Part shown: piece by piece, positions 44,307 through 63,734 of the stretch
Layout of the letters: each line of letters starts with the position of its first letter
How positions within the stretch are numbered: position 1 is the first letter of the stretch
Translations under genes and position numbers: made by a program
Source: Candidatus Synechococcus calcipolaris G9
GTDB taxonomy: Bacteria > Cyanobacteriota > Cyanobacteriia > Thermosynechococcales > Thermosynechococcaceae
NCBI RefSeq assembly: GCF_029582805.1
Contig: NZ_JAKKUT010000006.1
Coordinates: forward strand, 1-64,000
Length of the DNA stretch: 64,000 nucleotides
Reading direction: 5' to 3'
The notes under the pieces: model-generated
Databases searched by the model: none
Told to the model about the DNA's origin: nothing
Seen by the model: the letters and a program-made list of their open reading frames with translations, nothing else

Positions 44307-44413
44307 GTTTTGCACAAGCGGCAACAGGCTATTGCGAAGTTAGGGAGTTACCTCAGCTGAGTGGTACCGAAATCCCGTCACTGTTTACTTTAAATCAAGG
44401 AGAGTTGGCGCAG

Positions 44414-45382
44414 ATGGAATCTATGAAGGCAGCCGTATTAACTGCGTTTGGTGATGCTGAGAAGTTTGAGATTCAAACGGTTCCCATACCAACACTGAAG
44501 GCGAATCAGGTGTTAGTCAGAGTTTGTGCAACCTCGATTAACCCGGTCGATTACCAAACTCGTCGTGGTGATTACAAGGAACTGGTTCGATTACCCGCCA
44601 TCATTGGAGTCGATGTTTCAGGGGTGATTGAGGCAGTTGGCGAAGCTGTGACTGATTTCAAGGTGGGAGACAACGTGTACTACTCGCCGCAAATTTTTGG
44701 AGAATTCGGTAGCTACGCCCAGTATCATGTGGCTGATGCAGCGATTGTTGCATTGAAGCCTGCAAATCTATCGCATATTGAAGCTGCTTCTTTTCCGCTT
44801 GCAGGTGGGACTGCTTGGGATTGTCTGGTGACTAGGGGCAATCTACAAGTTGGTGAAACAGTTCTTATCCATGCGGGTGCGGGTGGAGTGGGTTCGATCG
44901 CAATTCAACTCGCCAAAGCGATCGGGGCATACGTTTTTACGACGTGTAGTTCTAGAAACCGAGATTTCGTGACAGCACTGGGCGCAGATCGGGTGATTGA
45001 TTACAAAAATGAAAATTATGTAGAAGTCATTCGTCAAGAAACCAATGGACTGGGTGTGGATTTAGTTCTAGATACGATCGGCGGAGAAACCATTCAGCGC
45101 AGTCTAGAAATCATTCGTCCCTTTGGTCGGCTGACAAGCATTGTAGACGTTGCCATACCGCAATCGCTGCTGGAAGCATGGGGTAAGAATCTGTCGATTC
45201 ATTTTGTTTTTTCACCCCAGTACCGAGCAAAATTAGAGGCTTTGACAAAACTCATCGAGCGTCAACAGCTTCGCCCAGTGATTGATTCAGTATGGTCTTG
45301 GGATCAGGTTGTTCTGGCACATCAACATCTAGAGCAGGGAGGAACACGGGGCAAAGTTGTGCTGAAGTTTACAGAAAATTAG
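44414..45382 (+). CDS. Zinc-independent MDR-family NADP-dependent oxidoreductase (quinone reductase type)
   Basis: 322 residues from ATG 44414, chosen because AAGGAG lies 11 bases upstream (44397-44402) and the protein then starts MESMKAAVLTAFGDAEKFE like its family. A GTG at 44303 overlapping the RidA stop would add 37 residues of no recognisable type. GroES-like domain, then Rossmann domain with VLIHAGAGGVGSIAIQLAKAIGA. No structural-zinc Cys cluster, so it belongs to the quinone-reductase side of MDR. It reduces quinones or enones with NADPH. Possibly coupled to RidA. Confidence 0.85.
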   Translation: MESMKAAVLTAFGDAEKFEIQTVPIPTLKANQVLVRVCATSINPVDYQTRRGDYKELVRLPAIIGVDVSGVIEAVGEAVTDFKVGDNVYYSPQIFGEFGSYAQYHVADAAIVALKPANLSHIEAASFPLAGGTAWDCLVTRGNLQVGETVLIHAGAGGVGSIAIQLAKAIGAYVFTTCSSRNRDFVTALGADRVIDYKNENYVEVIRQETNGLGVDLVLDTIGGETIQRSLEIIRPFGRLTSIVDVAIPQSLLEAWGKNLSIHFVFSPQYRAKLEALTKLIERQQLRPVIDSVWSWDQVVLAHQHLEQGGTRGKVVLKFTEN

Positions 45383-45455
45383 TCCAGCTTTACGACGTTG
45401 GTAATTGCTAAATGGATCGGAGTTTGATTGTGTATTGAACAGAGGAGAGATTCAA

Positions 45456-45512
45456 ATGTCAGCCAAAAATAAAGCAATCTTAGAAGAGGCAAACGCGGCG
45501 ATCTCTATCTGA
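45456..45512 (+). pseudogene. Truncated SnoaL/NTF2-like gene, 5' end only
   Basis: An AGGAGAG site precedes ATG 45456. The 18 codons MSAKNKAILEEANAAISI resemble the start of SnoaL-like (NTF2-fold) proteins, which continue AxxxGDxEGFL. Here the frame stops at TGA 45512. It looks like a deletion inside the gene, leaving promoter, ribosome site and N-terminus. Confidence 0.45.
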
Positions 45513-45617
45513 GTCTATCTATTACAGGTCGGGAATTGGAAGGTGAAGCTATCACCAGTACTGCCCGTACTGATGAAGCAGATCAAAACTTTTACACGTG
45601 CAATCAAAGGAAAAGAG

Positions 45618-46475
45618 ATGAAATTACGCTACGGGTTTCGACAGGTCGGCGACATCGAAGTGTTCTACCGCGAGGCTGGGTCAAGCGATGCGCCAGTGAT
45701 CCTGCTGTTGCATGGCTTTCCGACCGCTAGCCACATGTTCCGCGACCTGATCCCTCTGCTCGCCGATCACTTTCGGCTCATTGCGCCGGATCTGCCTGGT
45801 TTCGGACAGACTAAGGCACCGCCGCGCGGGACGTTCGATTATACGTTCGACCGCCTTGCCGATGTGATCGAGGACTTTACCGAGGCTTTGTCGCTCGATC
45901 AATACGTGCTTTACATCTTCGACTACGGTGCGCCGGTAGGGCTGCGTCTGGCGATGCGTCATCCTGAACGGGTATCTGCGATCGTCTCGCAAAACGGCAA
46001 CGCCTACCTTGAGGGGTTCAGTGACGAATGGGGGCCATGGGTAGCCTATTGGCGTGAACCGAGCGCAGCGAACCGGGAAGCCTGCCGACCCTCCCTCGCG
46101 CCGGACACAATCCGGAACTGGCAGTATGGTACCGGAGCCGATCCAACCCTTCTATCGCCCGACGGCTACGAACTCGACATTGCCTACATGGGGCGGCCAG
46201 ACGCGGAGGAGATCCAGCTCGATCTGATCCTCGACTACCGCAGTAACGTCGTGCTTTATCCAGCCTTCCAGTCCTACTTTCGCGAGCACCGTCCGCCGCT
46301 TCTCGCCGTCTGGGGTCGTCATGATCCGGCATTTCTGCCCGCTGGTGCTGCCGCCTATCAGCGAGATCTCCCAGATGCAAAGATTCACCTGCTCGACGCC
46401 GGACATTTCGCGCTGGAGACTCATGCAGAGGAGGTCGCAACGTTGATCCGCGCGTTCCTTGACGGTACGATCTGA
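45618..46475 (+). CDS. Alpha/beta hydrolase, epoxide-hydrolase/haloalkane-dehalogenase type
   Basis: 285 residues from ATG 45618 with AAAGG 7 bases upstream. The nucleophile position is Asp (YIFDYGAPVGLRLAMRHP), which indicates the epoxide-hydrolase or dehalogenase branch rather than esterases. HGFPTASHMFRDL forms the oxyanion region and HDPAFLP plus AGHFALETHAEE supply the acid and His. Codon use is visibly G+C-richer than the neighbours, with no GCGATCGC, suggesting recent transfer from a high-GC bacterium. The stop TGA (46473-46475) is the first triplet of an IS3 terminus, so the native C-terminus may be slightly altered. Confidence 0.82.
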   Translation: MKLRYGFRQVGDIEVFYREAGSSDAPVILLLHGFPTASHMFRDLIPLLADHFRLIAPDLPGFGQTKAPPRGTFDYTFDRLADVIEDFTEALSLDQYVLYIFDYGAPVGLRLAMRHPERVSAIVSQNGNAYLEGFSDEWGPWVAYWREPSAANREACRPSLAPDTIRNWQYGTGADPTLLSPDGYELDIAYMGRPDAEEIQLDLILDYRSNVVLYPAFQSYFREHRPPLLAVWGRHDPAFLPAGAAAYQRDLPDAKIHLLDAGHFALETHAEEVATLIRAFLDGTI

Positions 46476-47340
46476 CCATGTCTGGAAAAAGTGGACAGTG
46501 AAATTAAGCGGAAATGGGTGAAATTAGGGAGCGGTAATACTGATCCTCAAATTGAGCAGGGGATAGAAAACCGAGAGTGGAATGAAGGCGTTTACGGTTG
46601 TAGAAGACTTCAATCCATTCAACAATGGTCGTCCTGGCAATCGCCCGGTTTGGAAACACCGTGGGGTGAATCAGCTCGGTTTTTATCGTGCCGAAAAAGC
46701 GTTCAGCGACCGCATTATCCCAGCAGTTGCCCCGACGGCTTATACTACAGGCTATATTAGCTTGCCTTAGTGCCTGTTGATAGTCGTGACTGGCATATTG
46801 TGACCCCCGGTCTGAGTGAAATAATAAACCAGCGCTTGACGGTTTCCGGTGTCCCAAGGCGGCAGACAACGCGGTCAAAACCAGTTCGGTGCGCAAATGC
46901 TCGGCAATAGACCATCCCACCACCCTACGAGAGAATAGGTCGAGAATGACCGCTAGATAGACCCATCCTTCGGCTGTCCAGATATAGGTGATATCGGCCA
47001 CCCACACTTGGTCTGAGGCATCTGTCTTAAAGCAACGATCTAAGGTATTCTCTGCTATCGGTAGCCGATGATTTGAATCCGTTGTTCCCTTAAATTTCCG
47101 TCGCAGATGGGCATTGATCCCCAAGTTTGCCATTAATCGGATCACCCGTTGACGGCTGATCGGGAAGCCTTGAGCAGCTAAGGCTGCTTGTATCCTCGGT
47201 GAGCCATAGGTTTGACGGCTCTCTTGCTGAATCTGTTGAATCATTTGGCTCAATGTCTCATTCTCCTTACCTCGGGGTGATAATGGTCGGTTGCACCAGG
47301 CATAATAGCCACTCCTCGATTGCTTTATAGCAGTCGCCAT
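46473..47340 (-). mobile_element. IS3-family element, right part with orfB, 5' part missing
   Basis: The right terminus TGACCATGTCTGGAAAAAGT begins at 46473, matching in inverted sense the left terminus TGACCCTGACTGAAAAAAGT found at 47708, 52325 and 63737. The element is cut at about 47340 by IS630-type sequence, so orfA and the left end are not attached. It is therefore probably unable to move by itself. Confidence 0.85.
46504..47340 (-). CDS. IS3-family transposase OrfB, truncated at the N-terminus
   Basis: 278 residues of the DDE integrase-like transposase. Visible: SRSGYYAW, TYGSPRIQAALAAQGFPISRQRVIRLM (HTH_21), WVADITYIWTAEGWVYLAVILDLFSRRVVGW (first Asp), LLFHSDRGSQYASHDYQQAL (second Asp) and CWDNAVAERFFGTIKTEL (Glu). 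The catalytic triad is intact. The usual 25 or so residues before SRSGYYAW, and the overlap with orfA, are replaced by IS630 sequence. The ATG at 47340 is probably fortuitous, so the protein is doubtful in vivo. Confidence 0.85.
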   Translation of the reverse strand: MATAIKQSRSGYYAWCNRPLSPRGKENETLSQMIQQIQQESRQTYGSPRIQAALAAQGFPISRQRVIRLMANLGINAHLRRKFKGTTDSNHRLPIAENTLDRCFKTDASDQVWVADITYIWTAEGWVYLAVILDLFSRRVVGWSIAEHLRTELVLTALSAALGHRKPSSAGLLFHSDRGSQYASHDYQQALRQANIACSISRRGNCWDNAVAERFFGTIKTELIHPTVFPNRAIARTTIVEWIEVFYNRKRLHSTLGFLSPAQFEDQYYRSLISPISA

Positions 47341-47707
47341 ATAGATTAGGACGCTATGCTTAGAACGTTCTCCATCGCTTCTCGTAGGGTGTCAAACTCA
47401 CCTAAGCATTTGCGAATCCGGCTCTTAATCCATGACCAACATTTTTCAATGGGATTCAAGTCGGGAGAATAGGGGGGCAAGTACCATACCTCACAGCCTG
47501 CTGCTTTCACCAGTTCTTCAATTCGTCCGCCTTTGTGAAAACTGGCATTGTCAATCACGAGCGTCTGCCCTGGCTGCAATACGGGAATCAAGCAGGTTTC
47601 TCGCCATACCTCAAAGATGGAGCGATTACACATGCCGTCTACGGTAAATGGAGCCATCAATTGACCTGCACACAGAGCCGCAATCATATTGACACGTCCA
47701 CTCCGAC
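47341..47707 (-). mobile_element. IS630-family fragment, transposase C-terminal half
   Basis: On the minus strand the frame from about 47706 to 47346 reads NMIAALCAGQLMAPFTVDG, ending in the IS630 DDE block VIDNASFHKG (second Asp), VWYLPPYSPDLNPIEKCWSWIKSRI (catalytic Glu). The N-terminal half is missing; an IS3 left end joins at 47708. It separates an IS3 right part from an oppositely oriented IS3 left part. Confidence 0.85.
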
Positions 47708-47920
47708 TGACCCTGACTAAAAAAAAGGACAAACTCCAAGAGTCGCCAATGAAGGAGAAAGTCCAAATGAGCCAAAAACCAAGACGAACATATACTGCCG
47801 AACAAAAAGTTGAAGCTGTGGCAATTGTGAAACAGTCAGGCAAGCCGATTAGCCAAGTCGCCCAGGAAATGGGATTGACAGAAAGTGCCCTACGCCAATG
47901 GGTGAAAAAGCAACGATTGA
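47708..47920 (+). mobile_element. IS3-family fragment: left terminus and start of orfA
   Basis: The left terminal repeat starts TGACCCTGACTAAAAAAAAG (47708). ATG 47767 opens orfA: MSQKPRRTYTAEQKVEAVAI, then SQVAQEMGLTESALRQWVKKQ, an HTH_Tnp_1 domain. Homology with the other copies stops just after WVK(K)Q at about 47920. The rest of the frame is unrelated. Confidence 0.82.
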
Positions 47921-48049
47921 CCAAATCAGTGGCAACCAAAGGGCATCGCTTGGAGCATTCTAAACTCAATCCTAGCCATGACCATAAATGAAACTGGAAT
48001 CTCCCTCAAGGGCAGAGCCAGCATAGTATTACTCTCCACCGACTCCGCT
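47921..48049. other. Junction between IS3 fragment and the HD gene operon
   Basis: The sequence is non-IS. A minus-strand frame from about 48080 starts MPHITVSRIREAESVESNTM and runs towards the IS; it has no ribosome site. It may be the broken remainder of a gene truncated by the insertion. Confidence 0.3.
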
Positions 48050-48139
48050 TCACGAATACGAGAGACAGTGATGTGAGGCATGGCCGTAGTACAGGGAATC
48101 CCATCCGGCAACCTCAATCGCCATTCTTAAATCAGCCAT
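48050..48139 (-). CDS. Tiny ORF behind the HD gene (29 aa), possibly a broken gene
   Basis: ATG 48139 has AGGAGG 4 bases upstream, overlapping the stop of the HD gene. It reads MADLRMAIEVAGWDSLYYGH and stops at TGA 48050. The strong ribosome site shows that a gene starts here. The short length, next to an IS3 junction, suggests a frameshifted or truncated third gene of the HD operon. Confidence 0.4.
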   Translation of the reverse strand: MADLRMAIEVAGWDSLYYGHASHHCLSYS

Positions 48140-48147
48140 CATTCCTC

Positions 48148-48792
48148 CTACTGCGTCTTAGGATCACTGGGGACATAATCCTTCGGCAAAACAAATCCTT
48201 CCGTCAGCCGCACCAGTTCCGTAAGCTCAGCATAGGTGGTCGTCAGCCGCTCCAATAGAACTGCGGGAATAAGGTGAGCCTGATCAAAAGCGACAATGAT
48301 TTCCCGGTAATACCAGAGAGTTTTCTCCCGCTTAAACGTCATCCAGAACGCCGTCCCCATCGCCCGATAGTCCCGCACAATCGAGAGCAAATTGTGGAGC
48401 TTATCGCAGGCAGTCACCAAATGGTAATCCCGTTTGCTGGCATCACTGGTGGCAACATGGTTGATATAGCGGCTTTTCCGGGGAACCCAGGCCTCTTTGA
48501 CTTCACCTTTGCGCTTATCAATCAACGAATCAGAACATAACTCCACCAACGTCGCCACCCCATCCCCAAACTTAGCTCGGATGGCATTGAGAGTATCTAT
48601 CCCACCTTGATCTTCCGGGCCATCATGGAGCAGCCCAGAGATCGCCGCATCCTCCCCACCCCCAAACGAGATCACCAGGGCTGAAACTGCGTACAAGTGC
48701 GAGATATAGGGAACACCAGAGCCTTTCCGTTTCTGGTTTTCATGGAGCGTTGCCGCATATTCCAACGCATCTAAATACCGAGTAGAGAGCAT
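48148..48792 (-). CDS. HD-domain protein, SpoT/MESH1-like alarmone hydrolase type
   Basis: 214 residues. The order of HD motifs is that of the RelA/SpoT hydrolase domain: an early His (SGVPYISHLYAVSALV), the HD pair (ISGLLHDGPEDQGG) with following Glu-Asp, then the later Asp/Asn (LVTACDKLHNLLSIVRDY). There is no synthetase, TGS or ACT domain, so it resembles a small alarmone hydrolase. AGGAGG lies 6 bases before the ATG (48792). It sits in a compact operon: a 45-residue ORF upstream and a tiny ORF downstream, both with good ribosome sites. Substrate (ppGpp or other) is an inference. Confidence 0.75.
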   Translation of the reverse strand: MLSTRYLDALEYAATLHENQKRKGSGVPYISHLYAVSALVISFGGGEDAAISGLLHDGPEDQGGIDTLNAIRAKFGDGVATLVELCSDSLIDKRKGEVKEAWVPRKSRYINHVATSDASKRDYHLVTACDKLHNLLSIVRDYRAMGTAFWMTFKREKTLWYYREIIVAFDQAHLIPAVLLERLTTTYAELTELVRLTEGFVLPKDYVPSDPKTQ

Positions 48793-48828
48793 TATTAACC
48801 TCCTACTAATTGAGTCATAGTCATCGAA

Positions 48829-48966
48829 TCAACCCATATCCGGGTCTTCACCTTCAGCGGCATACCAAAGCACATCCAAGCAATAAGCCACCTCCCGCAC
48901 CTGCCGTCCCATCAATGAGAGGGTTTTCCCCATCGCCCGCCGGTCTTCCACAGAAAGATCCCTCAT
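48829..48966 (-). CDS. Small 45-residue protein upstream of the HD gene
   Basis: ATG 48966 follows GAGGTG at a 6-base distance. It reads MRDLSVEDRRAMGKTLSLMG, continues RQVREVAYCLDVLWYAAEGE and ends at TGA 48829. Helical, amphipathic, acidic tail. It is 36 bases from the HD gene on the same strand and probably cotranscribed. Not a known family to me; could be a partner or regulator of the HD protein. Confidence 0.5.
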   Translation of the reverse strand: MRDLSVEDRRAMGKTLSLMGRQVREVAYCLDVLWYAAEGEDPDMG

Positions 48967-49110
48967 GTCTATCACCTCGCTTTTAACCTCAACATCTACA
49001 TCATGGCAGAACCAAAATCTGGCATAACTAAAATCAAAATAAGACTAGAATGCTTGTGAACATTGAATCATAGCCTTTTAACTCAATTGGGAACCTGGGG
49101 AATTAAATCA

Positions 49111-50523
49111 ATGCCACGCACCAGTTATGGAAAAACCTTCCTAAGACAAGTCGGATTTGTCCTAGAGACCATTCTCTGGGTAGAAATAAACATTACCCCT
49201 GAGCAGCAAACCCTAGACCGTTGGCTATCAGAAATTCATCCCCACCCCGCCCTACCCCACACAACCGAGATAGAAGTCCGCACCACCTTGATCCAGTTGC
49301 TTCGGTATATGCGTGAATACGGGAAATACACCAGTCAGTTTAATCAGTTATTTGTCCCTGGTTCACAGACCAACCCCACCATTCGTAAACGGAATCTAGA
49401 ACGGCTACGTTCAGTCCTCTACCGCCTAACCGAATTGGGATACTTTAAGCGATTGATCAGCACTAAAAAAGAAGAATGTCACTTTTTCCTCATTCTGCCA
49501 GGACTAGAGGATATGACAGACTACCAGACTTGGCTCAGAACCCAACTCCCCCACGATTGGGCAGAAGCACAACGAGCCGGTCAACGTAAACCACCCCCTA
49601 CCTTCGCCAGTCCAATTACAGGTCGCCGTCAAGAAATTAAAGCCCTGAAAGACTATTTTCATCGTGGAGTGCGGCTGATTATCCTCTATGGATTACCAGG
49701 AGTAGGAAAAACAGTTCTCGCCCAGCAAGCACTAGGGGAATTAGGCTTTAGCAAAATTTATCGCCTCACAGCCCAACCGGATCCCTATCTCCCCGATTGG
49801 TTGAAATCACAAGTCGGACATTCAGGTCAATGGCAAACTTACTTGAAGCAACATCGGGCAGCAGTAGTCATAGAGGGTTTCCAGACCTGTTTAGACCAAC
49901 AGGGGTATGTACGTTCCGATTGCCAGTCCTGGTCAAAATTTCTGTACGAGCAACGCTGGGCCGAAGGTTGGCTAACAATAATGACCAGTAACCAAATCAT
50001 TGCCGAGTCAAAAATCACCAGTCGTAGCTTAATGATTGTCGGTCTAACCGTAGATGATTGGCGCACCGACTGGAATCATCGGCAGATCAGCGTCTCAGAT
50101 ACAACCCTAGAGGCAATCCACCAGACCTATGGAGGGCACCCCAAAGTCATGCGGATTCTTGGCAACCTGATCTGTGAACAGCACCAAGGCAATGGAGAAG
50201 CATTTTGGACAAAGCATCAGTACAATCTCCTAGGTCATCCGCAGATCGAGGATTTATATAACCGTCAATGGCAGCCCATTAAACAGAAGTTTCCCCAACA
50301 ATTCCAACGAATGCAGAAGACATTGCCCCAGGTAGTAGGCTGTCTAGATGCTCTGGAACCTAGCGAGAAAGAATTACTCGACCACTACTTGATCACCAGT
50401 GGGACTGATTCAGCAAATACACTTGCTCTAGCTCAAACGATGTCACTAGAGAACATCCCGCGTCTAGGTCGCCCAGAAATTGGAATCACATCTACTAGCA
50501 GTCTTCGTTCAAGCTGTCCGTAA
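49111..50523 (+). CDS. P-loop (STAND-like) ATPase, 3' end probably truncated
   Basis: 470 residues from ATG 49111; the TTG at 49063 is an alternative. The N-terminal 160 residues are helical and may include a winged helix (RNLERLRSVLYRLTELGYF). The ATPase starts at GRRQEIKALKDYFHRGVRLIILYGLPGVGKTVLAQQAL (P-loop GLPGVGKT). A Walker-B-like AAVVIEGFQTCL and a GGHPKVMRILGNLI sensor follow. The last 15 bases overlap the convergent AraC gene, and the final residues (GITSTSSLRSSCP) have no helix-forming pattern. A deletion may have joined this gene to the AraC region. Function is unknown; a signalling or defence switch is plausible. Confidence 0.65.
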   Translation: MPRTSYGKTFLRQVGFVLETILWVEINITPEQQTLDRWLSEIHPHPALPHTTEIEVRTTLIQLLRYMREYGKYTSQFNQLFVPGSQTNPTIRKRNLERLRSVLYRLTELGYFKRLISTKKEECHFFLILPGLEDMTDYQTWLRTQLPHDWAEAQRAGQRKPPPTFASPITGRRQEIKALKDYFHRGVRLIILYGLPGVGKTVLAQQALGELGFSKIYRLTAQPDPYLPDWLKSQVGHSGQWQTYLKQHRAAVVIEGFQTCLDQQGYVRSDCQSWSKFLYEQRWAEGWLTIMTSNQIIAESKITSRSLMIVGLTVDDWRTDWNHRQISVSDTTLEAIHQTYGGHPKVMRILGNLICEQHQGNGEAFWTKHQYNLLGHPQIEDLYNRQWQPIKQKFPQQFQRMQKTLPQVVGCLDALEPSEKELLDHYLITSGTDSANTLALAQTMSLENIPRLGRPEIGITSTSSLRSSCP

Positions 50524-51429
50524 CCGTTCAATGTCTCGAATGGGTGGCGCACCGAACAAGCGCGAATATTCCCGACTGAACTGTGAGGGACTTTCATATC
50601 CCACCTGGTAGGCAGTAGAGGTCGCATCGAAATCCTCAGCGAGCATCAGACGACGCGCTTCTAACAGTCTTAACTGCTTCTGATACTGAAGCGGACTCAT
50701 CGAAGTAACTTTCTTGAAATGCTGATGCAACGACGAGGTAGACATGCCAATCTGACTCGCTAAATCCTCGATCCGCATCGGTTGGGTAAAATTAGATTTA
50801 ATTTGTTGAATGGCTGAGGCAATTCGCTGCATATTACTGCCGGATGTAGCAATTTGACGCACGGCTTCCCCTTGTTCACCCATCAGCAGATGGTAATAGA
50901 GTTCACGAATCATCAACGATGCCAGCATGGAGATGTGTTGCGGAGTGTCCAAGAGCTTGATGAGGCGAAGGGTACATTCCATCAAGGCTGGATCGACGTT
51001 GCTAACCAATACACCTCGAACAGAGTTTCCTTTTTTTGCCGAACTGGTACCCATTTGGGCAACCATCTCACACAATTGCATCAAGTCTAAGTTCAGCTTC
51101 AGTCCTAAATACGGCTTGTCAGGTGTCGCCTCAGTTACAAAGCCACTCAGCGGTAAATCAACGGAAACGACGAGATACTGCATTGCACCATACTGATACA
51201 TCTCCTCACCCAGAAATGCTTTTTTCTGACCTTGAACGACGATCGCCAGAATTGGTTCGTACACGCTATGAGGTGCATTAGATACTGTATCTGAGCGTGT
51301 AAAGTCTAATTGCTCAATTGCCGTGGGTTGAATCATGTTGCCGCTAGATTGGGTATGCTGCATGATCCGTGTGGCAATTTCCTGGCGGTGATCCGCGATT
51401 ATGTCAGGATGAGAGACTGCGACTGTCAT
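50509..51429 (-). CDS. AraC-family transcriptional regulator
   Basis: 306 residues. An N-terminal AraC_N cupin-like domain (about 30-170: YEPILAIVVQGQKKAFLGEEMYQYG, YLVVSVDLPLSGFVTEATPDKPYLG) is followed by the two helix-turn-helix modules (MRIEDLASQIGMSTSSLHQHFKKVTSMSPLQYQKQLRL; ATSTAYQVGYESPSQFSREYSRLFG). It is divergent from the SDR gene, 155 bases away, the classic arrangement for a regulator and its target. AraC_N-type regulators often sense small aromatics or aldehydes. Confidence 0.9.
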   Translation of the reverse strand: MTVAVSHPDIIADHRQEIATRIMQHTQSSGNMIQPTAIEQLDFTRSDTVSNAPHSVYEPILAIVVQGQKKAFLGEEMYQYGAMQYLVVSVDLPLSGFVTEATPDKPYLGLKLNLDLMQLCEMVAQMGTSSAKKGNSVRGVLVSNVDPALMECTLRLIKLLDTPQHISMLASLMIRELYYHLLMGEQGEAVRQIATSGSNMQRIASAIQQIKSNFTQPMRIEDLASQIGMSTSSLHQHFKKVTSMSPLQYQKQLRLLEARRLMLAEDFDATSTAYQVGYESPSQFSREYSRLFGAPPIRDIERLRTA

Positions 51430-51584
51430 AGCAGAGACTCGACTAAATCAATACCTCGCACTTGACCATTATAGAATCTCTGCAAACGATCGCTCTGGAG
51501 AATCAGGCAATCATTGGATAGGTTCAGACATTTCAAGAACAGCTTTTCAAACCTATGCTGAACAGAATAGAGAGGAAAACAACG
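51430..51584. promoter_or_regulatory. Divergent control region between AraC regulator and SDR
   Basis: 155 bases. On the minus strand TATAAT (complement of ATTATA, about 51468-51473) could be the -10 of the regulator gene; its -35 is poor. AraC half-sites cannot be assigned by eye. Confidence 0.35.
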
Positions 51585-52319
51585 ATGTTAAACATTGAGA
51601 ACAAAGTCATTGTGATCACTGGAGCCAGTAGCGGGATTGGCGAAGCCACAGCTAAGTTACTCGCTCGAAACGGTGCAAAGGTGCTTTTGGGCGCACGACG
51701 CACCGAAAAGCTCGAAAAAATTGTTGAGGAGATCCACACCTCAGGCGGTACAGCAGAATTCAAAGCCGTAGATGTCACCGATCGAGAAGATGTGAAAGCG
51801 TTCATTGGGTTTGCGAAAGACAAGTTCGATCGCGTCGATGTCATCTTTAACAACGCAGGCGTGATGCCTCTATCCCCGATGAATGCTTTGAAGGTCGAGG
51901 AATGGGACAACATGATTAACGTGAATATCAACGGAGTGTTGAATGGCATTGCAGCAGCTTTGCCGATTATGGAAGCGCAAGGTGACGGACAAATCATCAA
52001 TACTGCGTCGATTGGTGCCCATGTGGTAGTACCCACTAGCGCAGTTTACAGCGCGACCAAGTACGCAGTTTGGGCAATCTCTGAAGGACTGCGGCAGGAG
52101 TCGAAAATGATTCGCGTCACCGTCATCTCTCCCGGTGTGGTTGAGACTGAACTCGGCTCTGATATCACCGACGAGCCAACAAAAGGCTTCTTGAAAGAAC
52201 TTCGCAAAGATGCACTCAACCCAGATACGATCGCCAGCGCTGTCCTGTATGCCGTATCCCAGCCGGATGATGTTGATGTCAACGAAGTGATTGTTCGCCC
52301 GATCCGTCAGATGATGTAG
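51585..52319 (+). CDS. Short-chain dehydrogenase/reductase
   Basis: 244 residues from ATG 51585 with GAGAGG 9 bases upstream; the frame to 51555 is rejected. Classical SDR: VIVITGASSGIGEATAKLLA (NAD(P) site), IFNNAGVMPLSPM (NNAG), IINTASIGAHVV (Ser), and YSATKYAVWAI (Tyr-x-x-x-Lys). LLGARRTEKLE after the second strand suggests NADPH preference. Substrate unknown. It is probably the target of the divergent AraC regulator. An IS3 left end begins 5 bases after the stop. Confidence 0.9.
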   Translation: MLNIENKVIVITGASSGIGEATAKLLARNGAKVLLGARRTEKLEKIVEEIHTSGGTAEFKAVDVTDREDVKAFIGFAKDKFDRVDVIFNNAGVMPLSPMNALKVEEWDNMINVNINGVLNGIAAALPIMEAQGDGQIINTASIGAHVVVPTSAVYSATKYAVWAISEGLRQESKMIRVTVISPGVVETELGSDITDEPTKGFLKELRKDALNPDTIASAVLYAVSQPDDVDVNEVIVRPIRQMM

Positions 52320-52324
52320 GCAAC

Positions 52325-52530
52325 TGACCCTGACTGAAAAAAGTGTACAAACTCCAAGAGTCGCCAATGAAGGAGAAAGTCGAAATGAGCCAAAAACCAA
52401 GACGAACATATACTGCCGAACAAAAAGCTGACGCTGTGGCAATAGTGCAACAGTCAGGCAAGCCGATCAGCCAAGTCGCCCAGGAAATGGGTTTGACAGA
52501 AAGTGCCCTACGCAAATGGGTCAAACAAGC
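52325..52530 (+). mobile_element. IS3-family fragment: left terminus and start of orfA
   Basis: Starts TGACCCTGACTGAAAAAAGT (52325) and follows the copy at 47708 with few changes. ATG 52385 opens the orfA start (MSQKPRRTYTAEQKADAVAI). Homology ends after WVKQ at about 52530, almost the same place as in the 47708 copy. The frame then reads into unrelated sequence and stops at 52612. Confidence 0.82.
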
Positions 52531-52588
52531 AATCATTCATGTATTGCTACGGATGGAAGAGGACTTCCCCCATCAGTATCTAGTATCC

Positions 52589-53833
52589 CTACGAGGCATT
52601 AATCGTCAATAAACTAGACCACTGCGTCGTGTACTGAGGAGAACGTTGACAGCATCGTATCGCCCAGGGCTGCTCCAACCCCATGGCAGCATAACGAAGA
52701 GTATGCCGTCCAAACCGATGATTAATTCCGTCAAGCGTCGCCATCAACGCCCCCCCCTTTTCATCATCCAGAGAATCAAAAAGAGTCTGCTGAATCGCCC
52801 GTTCAGAACCTAACCCTTGAAGCATGACCCCAGCCTTCCTGTAAGACCGCCCCGTCTGGTAAATAGCCTCAGCACAACGCAAAGCCCCACCGATCAACAT
52901 CCCCGTATGGTTCGTCGCCCTGAGTAACGAGAGACTAGCACTAGGCGACTCGTAATTGTCCTGAAACCGATTAGTTCGAGCAAAAACCGTTAAATAAGTA
53001 GCCGTTAGTCCCCGCCTCCGCAGCTTCTCCGCCGCCCGACTGACATAGGTCGCCACCGTCTGCTTCAACTCAGAAAGCGTCGTGACCGGTTGCCCAAACG
53101 AGCGAGAGACAACCAAGCATTGCTGCGGACTAGAGATCGCCTCCAGCGGAAGACACGATTCCCCCCGTAACTCCCGCACAATACGCTCCATAACAACATT
53201 AAATTGTTGGCGAATCATCGCCAGATCAGCATCTCGTAACTCAGCAGCCGTCGTGATATTCAACGACCGTAATCGACCACCCCATCGCGTCGAGATGCCC
53301 CAAATATCCTCCACAGCCAGACAGTCTAACGCTGAACCGATCATTGTTGGTGCCAACACCAAAACCCCGGCTTGCTGCTTAGCGATCCTATTAGCGACCT
53401 TAGCCAACACCTTAGTAGAGGCAACCCCAATCGAAACAGGAATACCCGTCCATTGCAGCACCGTTTGACGAATCACCTGCCCATGCTCCAAGAGTTGAGA
53501 TTGAAACCCAGAGAAATCCAGGAACGCCTCATCAATCGAATACACCTCCAAATCCGGGCAGAGATCAGCCAGAATTTGCATCACCCTCCGACTCATATCC
53601 CCATAAAGAGCATAATTACTAGAAAAAACCTGAATATGGTGAACAGCAACAAGGTCTTTGATCTTGAAAAAAGGAATACCCATCGGCACCCCCAACGCCT
53701 TCACCTCCTGAGAGCGAGCCACCACACAGCCATCATTATTAGACAAAACAACCACAGGTCGTCCCTGAAGCTTGGGATTAAAGACTCGTTCACAGGAGAC
53801 ATAGAAATTATTGCAGTCCACCAGAGCAAACAT
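52589..53833 (-). CDS. umuC: UmuC, Y-family DNA polymerase V catalytic subunit
   Basis: 414 residues. It performs error-prone translesion synthesis with UmuD'. Motifs: [19 protein letters not shown] (first Asp), [35 protein letters not shown] (catalytic Asp-Glu), [22 protein letters not shown] (thumb), [15 protein letters not shown] (HhH), and the DUF4113-like C-terminus LGLEQPW-type ([14 protein letters not shown]). It stands 8 bases after umuD in one operon. The 3' end is convergent with an IS3 fragment. Confidence 0.93.
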
Positions 53834-53841
53834 AGAAGCCC

Positions 53842-54408
53842 CTACAACGCATGGATCACACTGGTGACAACACCCCAGACAAGAAACGCACTAGCATCAG
53901 TAATCTCAATATCAGGATAAACAGGATTCTCTGCCTGTAGGAAAAGCCGACCCTGTACATATTTCAATCGCTTAATCGTAAGCTCCCCATTTAAGACCGC
54001 AACGACCACCTGCCCATCCTTCGGTACCAGGGAACGGTCAACAATAATCAGATCCCCATCATGGATACCGCCGCCAATCATCGAATCCCCCGCCACCCTC
54101 GCCATAAACGTAGCGGCTGGATTATGGATGAGATAGTGATTAAGGTCTAAACGTTGCTCAATAAAATCATCCGCTGGCGAAGGAAAGCCAGCAGAGACAG
54201 GCATTAGGTAGAGAGGCAACGCCAACGAATCTCCCCGTTGAGGACGATATAGCTCAGAGAGAATCGTCCTGGGAAATGGCTGTTGATGCAAGCACAGTGG
54301 AATCGGCTCCATGAACCTCAGAGGCAAACGAGCCGCCGTAGTAGGTTCAGCATCGATTTCCGTCCCCCTTGATTGCTCGGTTCCGGGTTTGACTCCACCT
54401 TGCATCAT
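53842..54408 (-). CDS. umuD: UmuD, LexA-like self-cleaving subunit of polymerase V
   Basis: 188 residues from ATG 54408; 156 if translation starts at ATG 54312, which has GAGG upstream and fits the shorter family length. Peptidase S24 fold. The cleavage site is Ala-Gly in [16 protein letters not shown]. The nucleophile Ser is in [12 protein letters not shown] and the Lys is in [10 protein letters not shown], with [13 protein letters not shown] before it. RecA-stimulated self-cleavage gives UmuD', which activates UmuC. First gene of umuDC. Confidence 0.9.
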
Positions 54409-54410
54409 TC

Positions 54411-54453
54411 ATGTACGAAATTCAATACATTTATCTTAGCCAAAATTAGTCAA
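54411..54453 (-). promoter_or_regulatory. Putative umuDC promoter with overlapping operator palindrome
   Basis: On the minus strand TTGACT (54453-54448), an 18-base spacer and TGTATT (54429-54424). ATGTA (54411-54415) and TACAT (54426-54430) form an inverted repeat with 10 bases between the arms that covers the -10 box. A LexA-type repressor there would block transcription. It does not match the cyanobacterial LexA consensus I recall closely. Confidence 0.45.
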
Positions 54454-54628
54454 GTATAGAGAAAGAGCAAATTGGAAGAGACGAGCCGGGCGAGATTGAA
54501 TATCTGAGGGCAACAGGGTGGGATAGGGCAAACCGCAGGATAACAGCCTTATTTACTCATTGTTGCTCCCTTCATGAACCATGAATACTGCTCGTAGCCT
54601 TGTGTGTGAAATGGGAGGGCACGTCACT
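54454..54628. other. Intergenic region between umuD and the second TPS gene
   Basis: No gene or RNA recognised. Right half becomes AT-rich towards the tandem repeats at 54629. Confidence 0.35.
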
Positions 54629-54672
54629 TATAAATTAAAAAAAATATAACTATAAATTAAAAGAAATATAAC
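54629..54672. repeat. Tandem 22-bp AT-rich repeat upstream of the TPS promoter
   Basis: Two adjacent 22-base units (54629-54650 and 54651-54672), each starting TATAAATTAAAA and ending AATATAAC, differing at one base. They end 6 bases before the -35 box. They may act as UP element or as a site for a nucleoid or regulator protein. Confidence 0.65.
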
Positions 54673-54678
54673 AAATTC

Positions 54679-54707
54679 TTGATAGTTAAAAATTCCCCTG
54701 ATATACT
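54679..54707 (+). promoter_or_regulatory. Sigma70-type promoter of the second TPS gene
   Basis: TTGATA (54679-54684), 17 bases, TATACT (54702-54707). Predicted start near 54714, leader about 23 bases to ATG 54737. Confidence 0.65.
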
Positions 54708-54736
54708 AATTCACATCTCATTTTCTGTCTGAAAAA

Positions 54737-57700
54737 ATGTTTAATATAATCCGTCGGTGGTTCACTCCCATTGCTGTTTTAGGTTGCTTTTTCTCCTCCC
54801 CTGCCCTCGCCCAGATTACACCAGCAGTGGGGGGGACAGGTACCGTCGTTACCGTAAATGGACAGCAATTTGACATTGGTGGCGGTGCATTTTCCAGGGA
54901 TGGGCAAAATCTATTTCACTTGTTTCAGCGATTTGGTCTCAATGAAGGGCAGATTGCCAACTTTTTATCCAATCCTGGGGTACGTAATATCCTGGCGGGC
55001 GTGAATGGTGGCGATGTCAGCTATATCAATGGTTTAATCCAGGTAATGGGGGGAAATAGTAACCTCTATTTGCTCAATCCAGCAGGAATTGTTTTTGGGC
55101 CCAATGCCCAGTTAAACGTACCAGCAGCCTTCCATGCCTCCACCGCCCAACGGGTGCATTTTGACGGCGGTATTTTTGACATTAATGGGTTTAATGACTA
55201 CGCCAATTTAGTGGGAAATCCCACCGGCTTTGAGTTTTTAAGTACGGGAATTATCGTCAACGAGGGAAACTTAGCCGTTGGCCCGGGACAAAACCTAAGT
55301 TTGATGGGTCACCAGGTGTTCAATACCGGAACCCTATCGGCACCGGGGGGGATGATCACAATTCAGGCAGTACCAGAGACAGGCATGGTACGGATTTCCC
55401 AGGAGGGAATGATCCTCAGCTTAGAGATTCCAGCAGATCGGATTCCCGAAGATGGGGTGATTGAAGCGGTGGATTTACCGCGATTGATCACTGGAGGAGA
55501 AGATCGTCCACGGGTCAATAGTGTGGTACACAATGCCGATGGTTCGATTAGTTTGGTTCATGACCCCAGTAAGGTGAATGTGCCAGTGGACGGAGCAACA
55601 ACGGTTGCCAGTGGCATGATGGATGTCTCGAATCTCGAGGGAGTGGGAGGGCAGATTAATGTCCTTGGTTCTAATGTTGCCTTTGTCAATGCTCAGTTGA
55701 ATGCCCAGGGAATAACAGGGGGTGGGACGATTCTGGGAGGTGGGGATTACCTAGGGGGAGCCACAGGCACGAATCGCCTGGATAGTAGTTTTAATGCCCA
55801 GAACCTCTTTGTAGATAACAACACCGTCATGAATGCGGATGCGGTGACCCAAGGGAATGGCGGCACAGTCATTAATTGGGCTGATAACAGAACCCAGTTT
55901 CATGGCACAATTACGGCCCGGGGTGGGGAGCTAGGGGGTAATGGGGGTTTTGTAGAAACCTCTGGACAGAATGTATTACAGGTCGGAGAGATGGCACGGG
56001 TCGATACGTCGGCTCCCCTAGGCAATATGGGGACATGGCTGCTGGATCCCCTCAATCTTTCCATTAGTGGCTCAGGTACAGATATAAATGTCACGGCTGC
56101 CAGCCCTTTTGAGCCAACGGGCGCAGGGTCGATTTTGCGAGATAGCACGATCAAAACAGCATTAGACACTAATCATGTGATTGTTACTACAGTGGGAACC
56201 TCCGGGAGCGATCGCGGTGATATTCGCTTCATTAATGATGCCAATATTACCTGGGGGAATAACACTACCTTTACAGTGAATGCAGTGGGACAAATCTTGA
56301 TGAGTGCGGGTACTAAGGTTGAAAATACCCATGCCGGTACATCCTTTGATGCGATTGTGTTTAATGCTAATACCGCAGGTACAACGACGGGCAGCTTTGT
56401 AGGAATCGAATTAAATGGTGCGACCCTCTCGGCGCAAGATGGCAATATTCGGCTAACGGGACACGGTGGAAATAGCGGAGCAAATAACTACGGTATTTAT
56501 CAATGGAATTCTGCCCAAGTGAAGACAACGGGTACTGGGAACATTACCTATACAGGCACAGGTGGTAATGGCACAAGTAACAACTTCGGTATTGTTTTAT
56601 CTGGAGCAAATACCACTATCACTAGTGGAAATGGGGAGATCGCCCTGACGGGAACCGGACGAGGAAACGGCACAAGAAACTACGGCATTTATCAACTGGA
56701 TGCAGCCCAAGTCAGTAGTACTGGTGGAACTATTACCTATACTGGCACGGGTGGCAATGGAACGGGAGGGAATTTTAATCTTGGTAATCATGGTATTTAC
56801 TTAACAGGAGCCAATACATCTGTTCAGAGTGGGACAGGAGCCATTACCTTTACGGGTGCCGGGCAAGGAACAACTTCTGATAACTACGGAATTTTTCAAC
56901 AGGAGAGTGCCCAAGTCAGCACTACGGGTAGTGGCAACATCAACTATTCCGGCACAGGTGGCAATGGCACAAATAATAACCGCGGTATTGTTATAACTGG
57001 AGCAAATACAACAATTACCAGTACATCCGGGGCGATCGCCCTGACCGGAATGGGACGAGGTAATGGTTCAGGTAACAGCGGTATTTCTCAACAGGATGCC
57101 CAAGTAAGTACGACCAGTGGCAACATTACCTATTCTGGCACAGGCGGAAATGGCACAAGTAGTAACCACGGCATTGTTTTATTTGGAGCCAATGCCACTA
57201 TTAGCAGTGATGATGGGGCAATCGCCTTGACGGGAACTGGACAAGGTAATGGAATAGTTAACTACGGCATTTATCAATTCGGTGAAGCCCGAGTTATTAC
57301 AACAGGGAATGGTACCATCACCTATGCTGGTACGGGCGGCGATGGCACAAATAACAACTACGGTATTCTTTTGACTGACCTCAATACACGCATTAGCAGT
57401 CAAGGGGGGGCGATCGCCCTGACTGGAGCTGGGCAAGGTAATGGAACAGGAAACTACGGCATTTATCAACTGGGTGCAGCCCAAGTCATTAGTACCAGTG
57501 GAAATATCACCTATACCGGCACGGGTGGCAATGGAACAGGCGGGAATTTTGCTCTTGGCAATCATGGTATTTACCTAACAGGAGCCAATACATCTGTTCG
57601 GAGTGGGACGGGAGCCATTACCTTTACGGGTGACGGGCAAGGAACAACTTCTGATAACTACGGAATTTTTCAACGAGATAGTGCCCAAGTCAGTAGTACT

Positions 57701-59281
57701 TCTGGCAATATTACCTATGAGGGCACGGGCGGCAGCGGCACAAATAACAACTACGGTATTTTTATAAACGATGCAAATACCAGTGTGCGCAGTACGCTGG
57801 GAGGAAATATTACTGTTACTGGGACAGGTCAAGGTAATGGCACTCAAAACTTTGGAATTTATCAAAGCAATGCTCAAGTAACTACAACGGGGAATGGTAC
57901 CGTTACCTACGAAGGCATAGGTGGCAATGGCACAAATAGTAATTTTGGTATTTACCTTCTCAATGGAAGTGCTCGGATTACGAGTGAAGACGGGGCGATC
58001 GCCCTAACCGGAATCGGAGGAGGGAATGGAACAGGAAACTACGGCATTTATCAACTGGGTGCAGCCCAAGTCAGTAGTACGTCTGGCAATATTACCTATG
58101 AAGGAACGGGCGGTAATGGCATAAGTAACAACTTCGGTATTCTTCTAAACGGAACAAATACACAAATTAGTAGTGGGAATGGGGCGATCTCCCTAACTGG
58201 AACTGGGCAAGGAAATGAAACAGGAAACCACGGCATTTATCAATTGAGTGCAGCCCAAGTCAGTAGTACGTCTGGCAATATTACCTATGAAGGAACGGGC
58301 GGTAATGGCACAGGTAGCAACCACGGTATTTTACTAGATGGAACAAATACCAGTGTGCGCAGTACGCAGGGAGGAAATATTACTGTTACTGGGACAGGTC
58401 AAGGTAATGGCACTCAAAACTTTGGAATTTATCAAAGCAATGCTCAAGTAACTACAACAGGGAATGGTACCGTTACCTATGAAGGCATGGGTGGCAATGG
58501 CACAAATAATAATATTGGTATTTACCTTCTCAATGGAAGTGCTCGGATTACGAGTGAAGATGGGGCGATCTCCCTAACTGGAACTGGGCGAGGGAACGGA
58601 ACAGGAAACTACGGCATTTATCAACTGGGTGCAGCCCAAGTCAGTAGTACCAGTGGAAATATTACCTATACCGGTACAGGTGGCAATGGAACAGGCGGGA
58701 ATTTTTTTCTTGGCAATCACGGTATTTACCTAACAGGAGCCAATACATCTGTTCGGAGTGAGAGTGGAGCCATTACCTTTACCGGTGACGGGCAAGGAAC
58801 AACCTCTGATAACTATGGAATTTTGCAACGCGATAGTGCTCAAGTCAGCAGCACTTCTGGCAATATTACCTATGAGGGCACGGGCGGCAGCGGCATAAAT
58901 AACAACTACGGTATTTTACTAGATGGAACAAATACCAGTGTTCGCAGTACGCAGGGAGGAAATATTACTGTTACTGGGACAGGTCAAGGTAATGGTACAG
59001 GTAACCACGGTATTTACCAAAACAATGCCCAAGTGACTACAACGGGGAATGGTACCGTTACCTACGAAGGCATAGGTGGCAATGGCACAAATAGTAATTT
59101 TGGTATTTTCCTTCTCAATGGAAGTGCTTGGATTACGAGCGAAGATGGGGCGATCGCCCTAACTGGAACCGGTAGCGGAAATGGAACAGGAAACTACGGC
59201 ATTTATCAACTGGGTGCAGCCCAAGTCAGTAGTACCAGCGGAAATATTACCTATACCGGAACGGGCCGGAACGGGCGGTAA
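54737..59281 (+). pseudogene. Second TPS exoprotein, N-terminal part (frame 1 of a split gene)
   Basis: 1514 residues. Signal peptide at residues 1-25 (TPIAVLGCFFSSPALA before QITPAV), TPS secretion domain (about 26-290) almost identical to the first exoprotein, WLLDPLNLSISG, then NYGIYQ/AQVSTTSGNITY/GTGGNGT repeats. The frame ends at TAA 59279 directly after a 10-base tandem duplication (59256-59275). Removing the duplication restores one frame to 63734, a protein of 2995 residues. Made alone, this part keeps signal and secretion domain but loses the conserved tail, so it could still be exported. The frameshift could be real (phase variation, decay) or a sequencing error. Confidence 0.85.
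59256..59275. repeat. 10-bp tandem duplication causing the TPS frameshift
   Basis: CCGGAACGGG occurs twice without gap (59256-59265, 59266-59275). The homologous position in the 771-bp repeat copy (near 60036-60046) has it once, followed by the same CGGTAATGGAACCGG. Confidence 0.9.
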
Positions 59282-60051
59282 TGGAACCGGAGGGGGCTTT
59301 TTTACTGGCAATCATGGCATTTTTCTAACAGGAACCAATACATCTGTTCGGAGTGAGACTGGAGTCATTACCTTTACGGGTGACGGGCAAGGAACAACTT
59401 CTGATAACTATGGGATTTTGCAAACAAGTGCAGCCCAGGTCAGGAGTACTTCTGGCAACATCACCTATGAAGGCATGGGCGGTAATGGCACAGGTAATAA
59501 CTACGGTATTTTTCTAACCGGAGCAAGTACGGCTATTACCAGTGGGAGTGGCACGATCGCCCTGACGGGAACCGGACAAGGTAACGGAGCATCTAATCGC
59601 GGTATTAGTCAAGAAAGCGGTGCCCAAGTCAGTAGTACGTCTGGCAATATTACCTATGAAGGAACGGGCGGGAATGGCACAAGTAACAACTTCGGTATTC
59701 TTCTAAACGGAACAAATACACAAATTAGTAGTGGGAATGGGGCGATCGCCTTAACTGGAATGGGACAAGGGAATGGAACAGGAAGTTACGGCATTTTTCA
59801 AGTGAATGCAGCCCAAGTCAGCACCACTTCTGGCAACATTACCTATGAGGGCACAGGTGGTAATGGCACATCCTTTAACTACGGTATTCTTCTAAACGGA
59901 GCAAATACAACTATTGCTAGTGGGAATGGGGCGATCTCCCTGACTGGAACTGGACGAGGGAATGGAACAGGAAACTACGGCATTTATCAACTGGGTGCAG
60001 CCCAAGTCAGTAGTACCAGCGGAAATATTACCTATACCGGAACGGGCGGTA
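59280..60051 (+). repeat. 771-bp internal tandem duplication, first unit (second unit 60051-60821)
   Basis: Sequence downstream of 59281 recurs at an offset of 771 bases (ATGGAACCGG at 59281 and 60052). Upstream of the 10-base duplication the offset is 781 (ATGGAACAGG at 59181 and 59962). 771 is divisible by three (257 codons). The units are nearly identical for about 500 bases and then diverge in repeat content. Edges approximate. Confidence 0.75.
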
Positions 60052-63000
60052 ATGGAACCGGAGGGGGCTTTTTTACTGGCAATCATGGCATTTTTCTAAC
60101 AGGAACCAATACATCTGTTCGGAGTGAGACTGGAGCCATTACCTTTACGGGTGACGGGCAAGGAACAACTTCTGATAACTATGGAATTTTGCAAACAAGT
60201 GCAGCCCAGGTCAGCACCACGTCTGGCAACATCACCTATGAAGGCACGGGCGGTAATGGCACAGGTAATAACCACGGTATTTTTCTAACCGGAGCAAGTA
60301 CGGCTATTACCAGTGGGAGTGGCACGATCGCCCTGACGGGAACCGGACAAGGTAACGGAGCATCTAATCGCGGTATTAGTCAAGAAAGCGGTGCCCAAGT
60401 CAGTAGTACGTCTGGCAATATTACCTATGAAGGAACGGGCGGGAATGGCACAAGTAACAACTTCGGTATTCTTCTAAACGGAACAAATACACAAATTAGT
60501 AGTGGGAATGGGGCGATCGCCCTAACTGGAATGGGACAAGGGAATGGAACAGGAAGTTACGGCATTTATCAACTGGGTGCAGCCCAAGTCAGTAGTACGT
60601 CTGGCAATATTACCTATGAAGGAACGGGCGGTAATGGCATAAGTAACAACTTCGGTATTCTTCTAAACGGAGCAAATACAACTATTGCTAGTGGGAATGG
60701 CACGATTGCCCTGACCGGAATGGGACAAGGGAACGAAACATCTAATCGCGGTATTAGTCAAGAAAGTGGTGCCCAAGTCAGTAGTACTTCTGGCAACATT
60801 ACCTATGAGGGCACAGGCGGGAATGGTACAGGTAGCAACCACGGTATTTATCTAGATGGAACCAATACCAGTGTTAGCAGTACGCAGGGAGGAAATATTA
60901 CTGTTACTGGGACAGGTCAAGGTAATGGCACTCAAAACTTTGGAATTTATCAAAGTAATGCTCAAGTGACTACAACGGGGAATGGTACCGTTATCTACGA
61001 AGGCATAGGTGGCAATGGCACAAATAATAATTTTGGTATTTACCTTCTCAATGGAAGTGCTCGAATTACGAGTGAAGATGGGGCGATCGCCCTGACGGGA
61101 GAGGGACGAGGGAACGGAGCAAATAATTACGGGATTAGTCAACAAAGCGGCGCCCAAGTCAGTAGTACTTCTGGCAATATTACCTATACCGGAACTGGAG
61201 CCAATGGAGCAGCAATTCTGACTTTAAGTAGTAGTAACCGGATTGGGAATGGTACAAGCGGCAATATTTCCCTTATTTCTACCAATAATGTCATCACCCT
61301 AAATGATCTCACCGTCAACACTACAGGCAATCTGCATATTAATTCCCCAGCGAATGTTAGCCAAAATGCTAGTTCGTCGCTGCAAGCAACTGGCTTAGAA
61401 CTTCTCGGAGCCGGCAATTTTACCCTTAGTAGTGCAACCAATGCTATTACCACCCTAGCGGGTAATACCACCGGAGCAATTAGCTATCGAGATAGTGGTG
61501 GATTTGCGATTGGCACAGTTGGCACAACGAATGGTTTAGCGTCTCAAGGGGCAATCACCCTCAATGCAGGGGGAGCCGTCACCCAAACTCAAGCCCTTAG
61601 TGCCACAAGCTTAGACTTATTAGGTGCAGGCAATTTTACGCTCACCCATACCAGTAATGCCATTAACACCCTAACGGGCAATACCACCGGAGCAATTAGC
61701 TACACCAATTCAGTTGCTTTAACCATCGGTAATTTAACTACAGGCAACAGTTCCCTCACCCTAATGACTCCCGGTAGCCTCACCTTTAACGGCATCATTT
61801 CTACTGGCACCGAGGATATAACAGCAACCGGGGGCATGATTGGGCAAACCGGCGGCACACTCACCAGTACTGGCATCGCTAGTTTTGAAAGTACTCAAGC
61901 CAATGTTGGTACGGTTTCCGCTAACAATACAACCAACACCAATCTGGGCAACTCCACAATTGGCGGCAACTTTACCCTAACCTCTACGGGAGCAATTACC
62001 CAAAGCGGCTTCTTGAAAGTAGCAGGCACCACCAATCTTAATGGCGCAACTGTCACCCTATCTAACCCTGATAATCTTCTCCTTGACCTCACCGCAACCA
62101 CTTCTGCTGGAGATCTGATCCGTTCCCAAGTGGGACCCATCACCCTAGCAGGGCAAACTATCACCGGCAATCTCAGTATGACCAGTATTGATGGCACAAC
62201 CACCACAGGCTACACCAATAGCCATAACGGGAATGCAATTACCCTAGGAGGGAATAATAATTTAGGGGGTGAGATTCGCTTTAATACGAATATGGCAGGT
62301 CTCAGTCAAGGGATTGTGGGTGGCGGCACTGCAAGTATTAGTCAAACCGGAATCCTTGAAGTTAGTGGAACCAGCAACTTTACAGCCATGGGTGGCACGA
62401 TTGATCTGAGTACTCACGCAAATCAACTCACAGGAGCCGTTAGCCTCGACACCGGAGTCACAGGCGGGAACATTAGTCTGCAAAATAACCAAGCTACTCA
62501 ACTGGCAGGAGTTACAACTGGTGACAATCTAACTATTACGACGGGTGGAAACCTCACCCAGTCGGGGGCGATCTCAGCAGGTGGTACGACAACGCTCAAT
62601 GTGGGAGCTAATGATATTACGCTGGACAATGTTAATAATGACTTTAATGTCCTGGGATTAACTGCCGCCAATGCCGCGATCCAAGATACGAACGAATTGG
62701 AGTTAGCCGCATCCACCCTGACCGGTAACTTAAGCGTGACCAGCGGAGGTGATTTAACTCAATCAACAGCGACAGCCGTGAGCGTCACTGGAGCCACAAC
62801 GTTCAATACCGGAACCCATAACATCACACTTGATGATGCCGGAAATGATTTCAATACCTTGGGAATAACTGCTGCCAATGCCACGATTGTCGATCAAAAT
62901 GCTCTGGAGTTAACTACATCAGCGATCGCCAACACTCTGAGCATTACTACACAAGGGGATTTAACTCAATCGGGCAGCCTAACAACGCAAAACTTGGCAA

Positions 63001-63734
63001 TTTTAGGGTCGGGCAATACCCTTCTGAATCATTCAGATAACCAAATTCAAACCCTGGCCGCCGATACAACGGGTAATTTAACGGTGTTAACAGCAACCAA
63101 TCTAACCATTGATACCGTGAACCCCAATGGTATTGAAAATGCAGATACCGTTCTTCTCCAAGCGGGAGGCGATATTACTCTCAATCAAGGGATTAATGCT
63201 GACAATAATGTTACGCTCATAGCGACTGAAAACTTTATTAACAATGCCGGAGCCAATGCCCTCCAGTCTACGTCAGGTCGTTGGCTAGTCTATTCCACCA
63301 GTCCCCAAGGAAATGTGAATGGCTGGTCAGTCTTGGGAGGAGGACAACAGTTTAGTACGACCTACCCCACACCACCAGGGTTTGCTGGGAATGGTTTTGT
63401 TTATCGTGTGGCAGCACCTCTTTTACCTCCGGTTACATCCAATTCTCCGGTCATTCTTTCAACCGCGATCGCACCGACGGTCAATGTACCTGCTGTACCA
63501 TCTTTACCACCACTGTCAACGCCTCCAACTAGCTCAGTCTCTCCCTCCCCGATCATTTTTACTTCGACGGATTTACCCCTACCCTCTAACCTATCCACCA
63601 TTTTGCAAGGACAAGAAGAGGACGAGATGCCCCTAGAGCAAAGCCTCTGTCAATTGCTCGAAAAACGAGAAGAGGCAGTCTTAGAGATTGATGGAGTACC
63701 CATAGAGTCTGCTCTAGCAGAGGAGTGTCGTTAG
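59282..63734 (+). pseudogene. Second TPS exoprotein, C-terminal part (frame 2 of a split gene)
   Basis: Open in the +1-shifted frame; the frame is open from 59181 but the first 30 or so codons overlap frame 1 and are not real. It continues the repeats (TGGNGTGGGFFTGNHGIFLTG), then a less regular region (about 61200-63200) with NFTL, TTGAISY and LELLGAGNFTL units. A Pro-rich spacer and the tail LSTILQGQEEDEMPLEQSLCQ follow, ending EECR. No ribosome site or start is seen near the shift, so this part is probably not translated alone. Confidence 0.85.

Follow-up and report, generated by a model that had tools for sequence, protein, structure and literature searches.

The locus considered here lies in a window of 64,000 nucleotides (the whole stretch of DNA that was analysed) from Candidatus Synechococcus calcipolaris G9, and it raises the question of whether a 10-bp tandem duplication inside a giant exoprotein gene is a switch, a plain mutation, or an error of assembly. 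The unit CCGGAACGGG stands in direct tandem at 59256–59265 and 59266–59275, and a third copy is found at 60037–60046; these three occurrences in the window compare with 0.21 expected by chance. The 76 bases at 59180–59255 are repeated exactly at 59961–60036 (offset 781), and the 99 bases at 59266–59364 are repeated exactly at 60037–60135 (offset 771), i.e., an exact 175-bp repeat carries 10 extra bases at one of its two copies. Similarity to the downstream copy drops sharply at its left edge, 59180 (59121–59179 has 20 differences from that copy), while to the right of the site 59276–59814 shows 13 mismatches to the downstream module, which is about 635 bp long. The duplication sits 76 bp within the 175-bp repeat, away from its edge, and its breakpoint is ambiguous by 1 bp, as base 59276 is also C. 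The single unit of the nearby copy shows that, as judged by sequence comparison, the duplication would be the derived state. A hypermutable multi-unit tract is absent from the site, which has two units, the sister module having one.

A sequence-only reading of this DNA had reported the 10-base unit twice in a row here and once in the duplicate segment, and had taken the change of offset from 781 to 771 for an insertion of exactly 10 bases; the sequence and the exact matches on either side bear out both statements. It had also placed an intact version 771 bp downstream. This holds for the repeat module, which is indeed intact there, but not for the gene: the module belongs to the same gene, no second intact gene is present at that place, and the intact paralogues are found elsewhere in the genome.

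The effect on the reading frame is seen in two ways. In the frame census of the span, frame 0, counted from 54737, is stop-free up to 59279 and has 126 stops from that point; in frame 1 the last upstream stop is at 59160, after which it stays open as far as 63732. The rung motif GGNACNGGNGG (n = 25) changes phase likewise: the 14 occurrences from 56555 to 58877 all belong to frame 0 and the 10 found from position 59268 onward all belong to frame 1, with one stray occurrence at 55339, ahead of the rungs. The gene is rich in 189-bp modules, and the sole rung-module spacing (n = 18) that is not a multiple of 3 is 403, the one across the site. Frame census and rung phase thus agree with the earlier claim that the duplication breaks a giant exoprotein frame; the frame of 2995 residues proposed for 54737–63734 without the insertion is also recovered, since 8998 − 10 = 8988 nucleotides, or 2996 codons including the stop. 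The first approximately 30 residues of the downstream open frame lie outside the original frame of the gene. The gene was kept unjoined and unedited, and its two frames were searched separately. Relative to 13 intact paralogues the frame is broken, and the two open reading frames are one broken gene, which should be annotated as frameshifted; this is a modest annotation point.

Table 1. Coordinates (in the window) of the duplication site and of the parts of the broken gene.
Feature	Position	Strand	Evidence
Upstream open frame, 1514 aa: signal peptide, TPS domain, about half of the β-solenoid	54737..59281	+	ORF and domain search; solenoid by AlphaFold2
TPS secretion domain PF05860, overlapped by TIGR01901 (adhes_NPXG)	54833..55411	+	E 1.1e-31 (PF05860); E 5.4e-21 (TIGR01901)
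Repeat block matching 59961–60135 apart from 10 extra bases	59180..59364	+	Repeat comparison
Downstream open frame, 1517 aa per ORF finder; no signal peptide	59181..63734	+	ORF finder, frame census
CCGGAACGGG × 2, 10-bp tandem duplication	59256..59275	+	Sequence
TAA stop met in the shifted frame shortly past the duplication	59279..59281	+	Frame census
Copy of the 175-bp block with one unit, 771 bp downstream	59961..60135	+	Sequence comparison
Best-scoring DUF5649 repeat (PF18886)	62664..62858	+	E 6.5e-41
Two-cysteine C-terminal tail, possible surface anchor	63648..63731	+	Paralogue alignment; anchor role by likeness to HMW1/HxuA (PMC5422565)

The broken gene encodes an exoprotein of two-partner secretion (TpsA, type Vb). 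Its N-terminal TPS domain follows a hydrophobic leader ending in ALAQ, judged by eye to be a signal peptide, and the upstream rungs are rich in Gly, Asn, and Thr. A β-solenoid passenger, as in TpsA proteins, is seen in the AlphaFold2 model (single sequence) of a 429-residue part of the upstream piece, which is confident and nearly all beta (pLDDT 85.7, pTM 0.90). In the PDB, the TpsA adhesin EtpA is the only match of the fold search with E < 0.001, and the only matches of the sequence search are also to EtpA (E 2.1e-23). DUF5649 (PF18886) forms five stretches, all in the downstream piece. Ten intact paralogues have tails that can be aligned with this one, and the two cysteines of the C-terminal tail, encoded at 63648 and 63726, are conserved in them; modelling of the tail structure gave a poor result (pLDDT 45), which was discarded. 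In HMW1 and HxuA, the TpsA is held in its TpsB by a C-terminal disulfide loop (PMC5422565), and by analogy the two-cysteine tail might serve as a surface anchor. With the NPXG-type TpsA proteins EtpA, HMW1, FHA, and HxuA, the product shares PF05860/TIGR01901, a short-repeat β-solenoid, and a TpsB encoded in the genome; unlike them, it has Gly/Asn/Thr-rich rungs and DUF5649 repeats, it lacks an adjoining tpsB, the genome has 14 tpsA per one tpsB, and this copy is cut by a frameshift.

The genome (3.30 Mb in 8 contigs, 99.97% completeness) contains 14 TPS genes with PF05860, 13 of them intact, each as one closed frame of 947–2461 aa; the broken gene is the sole exception. The partner is present as a single TpsB (ShlB + POTRA_2; C7:85140-86519, a 536-aa frame), which is not adjacent to the broken gene. 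The contig with this TpsB carries none of the 14 tpsA genes, and one TpsB appears to serve all fourteen. A similar out-of-frame duplication of at least 10 bp is found in none of the 13 sister tpsA genes.

Some exact blocks shared among the paralogues are much longer than would be expected from their overall divergence, for example those of 682 and 309 nt between C1:518080 and C2:228865, where mosaic exact blocks are seen on a background of about 85% identity. Between C5:208518 and C1:454390, the difference at synonymous sites is 2% over the C-terminal 270 codons and 34% at the N-termini. Exact blocks of up to 682 nt, together with near-identical C-termini beside divergent N-termini, make gene conversion among the tpsA paralogues probable, as judged from these comparisons; given the shared blocks, the suggestion that conversion from the duplicate could repair the break is plausible. 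Two orphan C-terminal tails of tpsA type that lack a TPS domain, C1:127103-127948 (minus strand) and C5:214269-214394, are either remnants of members that were lost or short derived genes, and their presence suggests earlier loss of tpsA members.

A second isolate or close relative with the broken gene was found neither by the protein scan nor by the exact-pattern scan of genome contigs, and the gene is absent from the plasmid collection and the viral contigs searched. The relatives include no genome of the same genus, the nearest having 65–70% DNA identity in the TPS region, and the C-terminal tail has no match in the 20 relatives searched.

The downstream half shows little sign of age. Measured against the three nearest intact paralogues, its dN/dS is 0.32–0.36; between two well-separated intact pairs the value is 0.30–0.31. 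The frame census finds no further stop in it, and relaxed constraint past the break, as expected of a pseudogene, is not observed by these two measures. As decay of the downstream half does not exceed that of the sister genes, the break is either recent, unfixed, or not real.

How common such duplications are bears on the last of these options. We counted exact tandem duplications in 1.02 Mb of sampled stretches of the genome, with the expectation taken from a first-order Markov model and ORFs defined at ≥100 aa. Twelve have a 10-bp and seven an 11-bp unit, 19 in total, against 0.5 and 0.0 expected, respectively; the units are all different, with microhomology of 0–3 bp. Though ORFs cover 88% of the sampled sequence, 17 of the 19 lie outside them (examples are found in the sampled stretches L058, 967-986; L074, 10028-10047; and L134, 9851-9870), which, for about 122 kb of non-ORF DNA, amounts to roughly 1 duplication per 7 kb (1.4 per 10 kb). 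Intergenic 10-bp duplications include that at C2:300967-300986. Of the two within ORFs, one is the tpsA case and the other affects a 105-aa ORF that has no Pfam match. Random assembly error would strike ORFs roughly in proportion, while mutation followed by selection leaves 17 of 19 outside; the duplication class is therefore most likely real, and the simplest reading of the tpsA case is that it is a further instance of this class that struck a dispensable gene. A unit length of 10–11 bp is about one helical turn.

That the class is special to this species is unsupported, as another cyanobacterial genome, G027, is denser (2.5 versus 1.4 per 10 kb of non-ORF DNA); in three further genomes (G009, G014, and G026) no such duplications were seen, in small samples only. 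A tps-specific mutational hotspot is rejected, similar duplications with unrelated units being spread over non-ORF DNA. The background rate of exact 10–11-bp duplications provides a yardstick for other claims of small switches in this genome.

An assembly or consensus artefact, namely a local misjoin in the 175-bp exact repeat that left a 10-bp overlap unmerged in a gene that is really intact, is rather unlikely. The site does lie inside a block repeated exactly 771 bp away, in a gene full of 189-bp modules, where assemblies can fail; the broken copy is unique among the 14 paralogues; and the sampled assembly contains at least one ambiguous base (C1:303067). However, exact 10–11-bp duplications are most likely a real class under a selection filter, the 13 other paralogues bear repeats too and are free of such an error, the assembly is nearly complete in few contigs, and the duplication is inside the repeat rather than at its edge. 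Deliberate production of both halves, by +1 frameshifting just before the stop or by restart at 59181, is extremely improbable: both halves are open and conserved, and the second frame has its ATG upstream of the stop, but the second product would lack a signal peptide and begin with residues that are out-of-frame noise, the arrangement is absent from all paralogues, and the nearby single-unit copy marks the duplication as derived.

Surface exoproteins are typical targets of phase variation, and the sequence-only reading had proposed a slipped-strand on/off switch. In its general form, this explanation invokes high-rate gain and loss of the 10-bp unit, alternating between a full-length, tethered exoprotein and a truncated one, shed or absent, with the repeat modules as repair templates; we regard it as improbable. 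Its more specific version is quite improbable: a two-unit slippage site would make a giant TpsA alternate between two forms, a full-length filament tethered to the cell and one of half length that is shed, and the modules within the gene would act as repair templates. Some precedents speak for a switch, as does the exchange of sequence among tpsA paralogues. In the pneumococcal capsule genes cap3A, cap8E, and tts, spontaneous in-ORF duplications give high-frequency reversible variation, as far as it is described where the original reports are cited (Waite 2001, 2003, cited in PMC2995930, PMC4243769); similarly, a spontaneous in-ORF duplication breaks the gene here, and its precise loss is possible in principle, but reversion and high frequency were, by those accounts, observed there, while no reversion or mixture is known for the tpsA copy. 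In Haemophilus influenzae, the TpsA adhesins hmw1 and hmw2 are phase-variable, a many-unit tract of 7-bp promoter repeats tuning their expression (PMC4849778); both systems are of the TpsA adhesin type, and a 22-bp tandem near-duplicate (54629-54672) is also present upstream here, but the tract there is in the promoter, whereas here two coding units shift the frame. On the other side, tandem duplications may be plain non-reverting mutations: in Xenorhabdus lrp they inactivate the gene, with no genetic reversion (PMC6786866). The likeness is in a gene-inactivating duplication whose reversion was unseen there and is not known here, although the units of 26–116 bp and the gene itself are different. 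Moreover, the site has only two units, derived from a single-unit parent with no earlier tract; an equivalent duplication is present in none of the paralogues (0 of 13), and an alternative, intact allele was not found elsewhere; and this genome has many duplications of that size with no switch involved. The proposed switch is thus not supported, and "off" is itself open to doubt: with signal peptide and TPS domain both retained in the upstream product, tail-less secretion is as likely. Should both alleles coexist in one culture, phase variation of a cyanobacterial surface protein would be directly testable, and the switch would consist in losing the probable anchor.

The explanation that we favour, and consider probable, is that one of the 14 tpsA paralogues recently acquired a real, spontaneous tandem duplication of 10 bp. 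Because 10–11-bp duplications are this frequent outside ORFs (about 1 per 7 kb there), it can be explained without a dedicated switching mechanism. Ten bases of a solenoid rung would have been copied by replication slippage or a comparable process involving about 1 bp of microhomology, and translation would end at residue 1514 of the would-be 2995. The truncated product would retain the Sec signal, the TPS domain, and about half of the β-solenoid, and by analogy with known TpsA proteins its export through the single TpsB may persist; it would lack the DUF5649 repeats and the two-cysteine tail. If the tail acts as in HMW1 and HxuA, the filament, tethered to the cell when complete, would become short and be shed once the tail is lost. 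Such a loss may be tolerable in a large, redundant tpsA family. The gene could revert through slippage or through recombination with its repeats, but an evolved switch is not required to account for it. The broken gene is most likely an early pseudogene or a clonal loss or truncation variant.

Several features of the surrounding window are observed as well. The 22-bp tandem near-duplicate (95%) precedes the ATG start of the broken gene by about 65 bp. Directly upstream of the gene, on the opposite strand, are umuD-like and umuC-like error-prone polymerase genes (52589-54408, minus strand). HIP1 octamers number 56 in the window against 0.6 expected, on average one per 1.1 kb, which fits a cyanobacterial host, as does an encoded protein of the magnesium-chelatase type. 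A stretch of 12 kb (43990-56208), which may have been acquired and contains umuDC as well as an AraC-type regulator, has no HIP1 octamer, and a second gap of 10 kb (4550-14623) covers the other tpsA gene of the window. Finally, a small YHS-domain protein contains an 18/36-bp coding tandem repeat (PCAAK-like residues) at 27876-27976.
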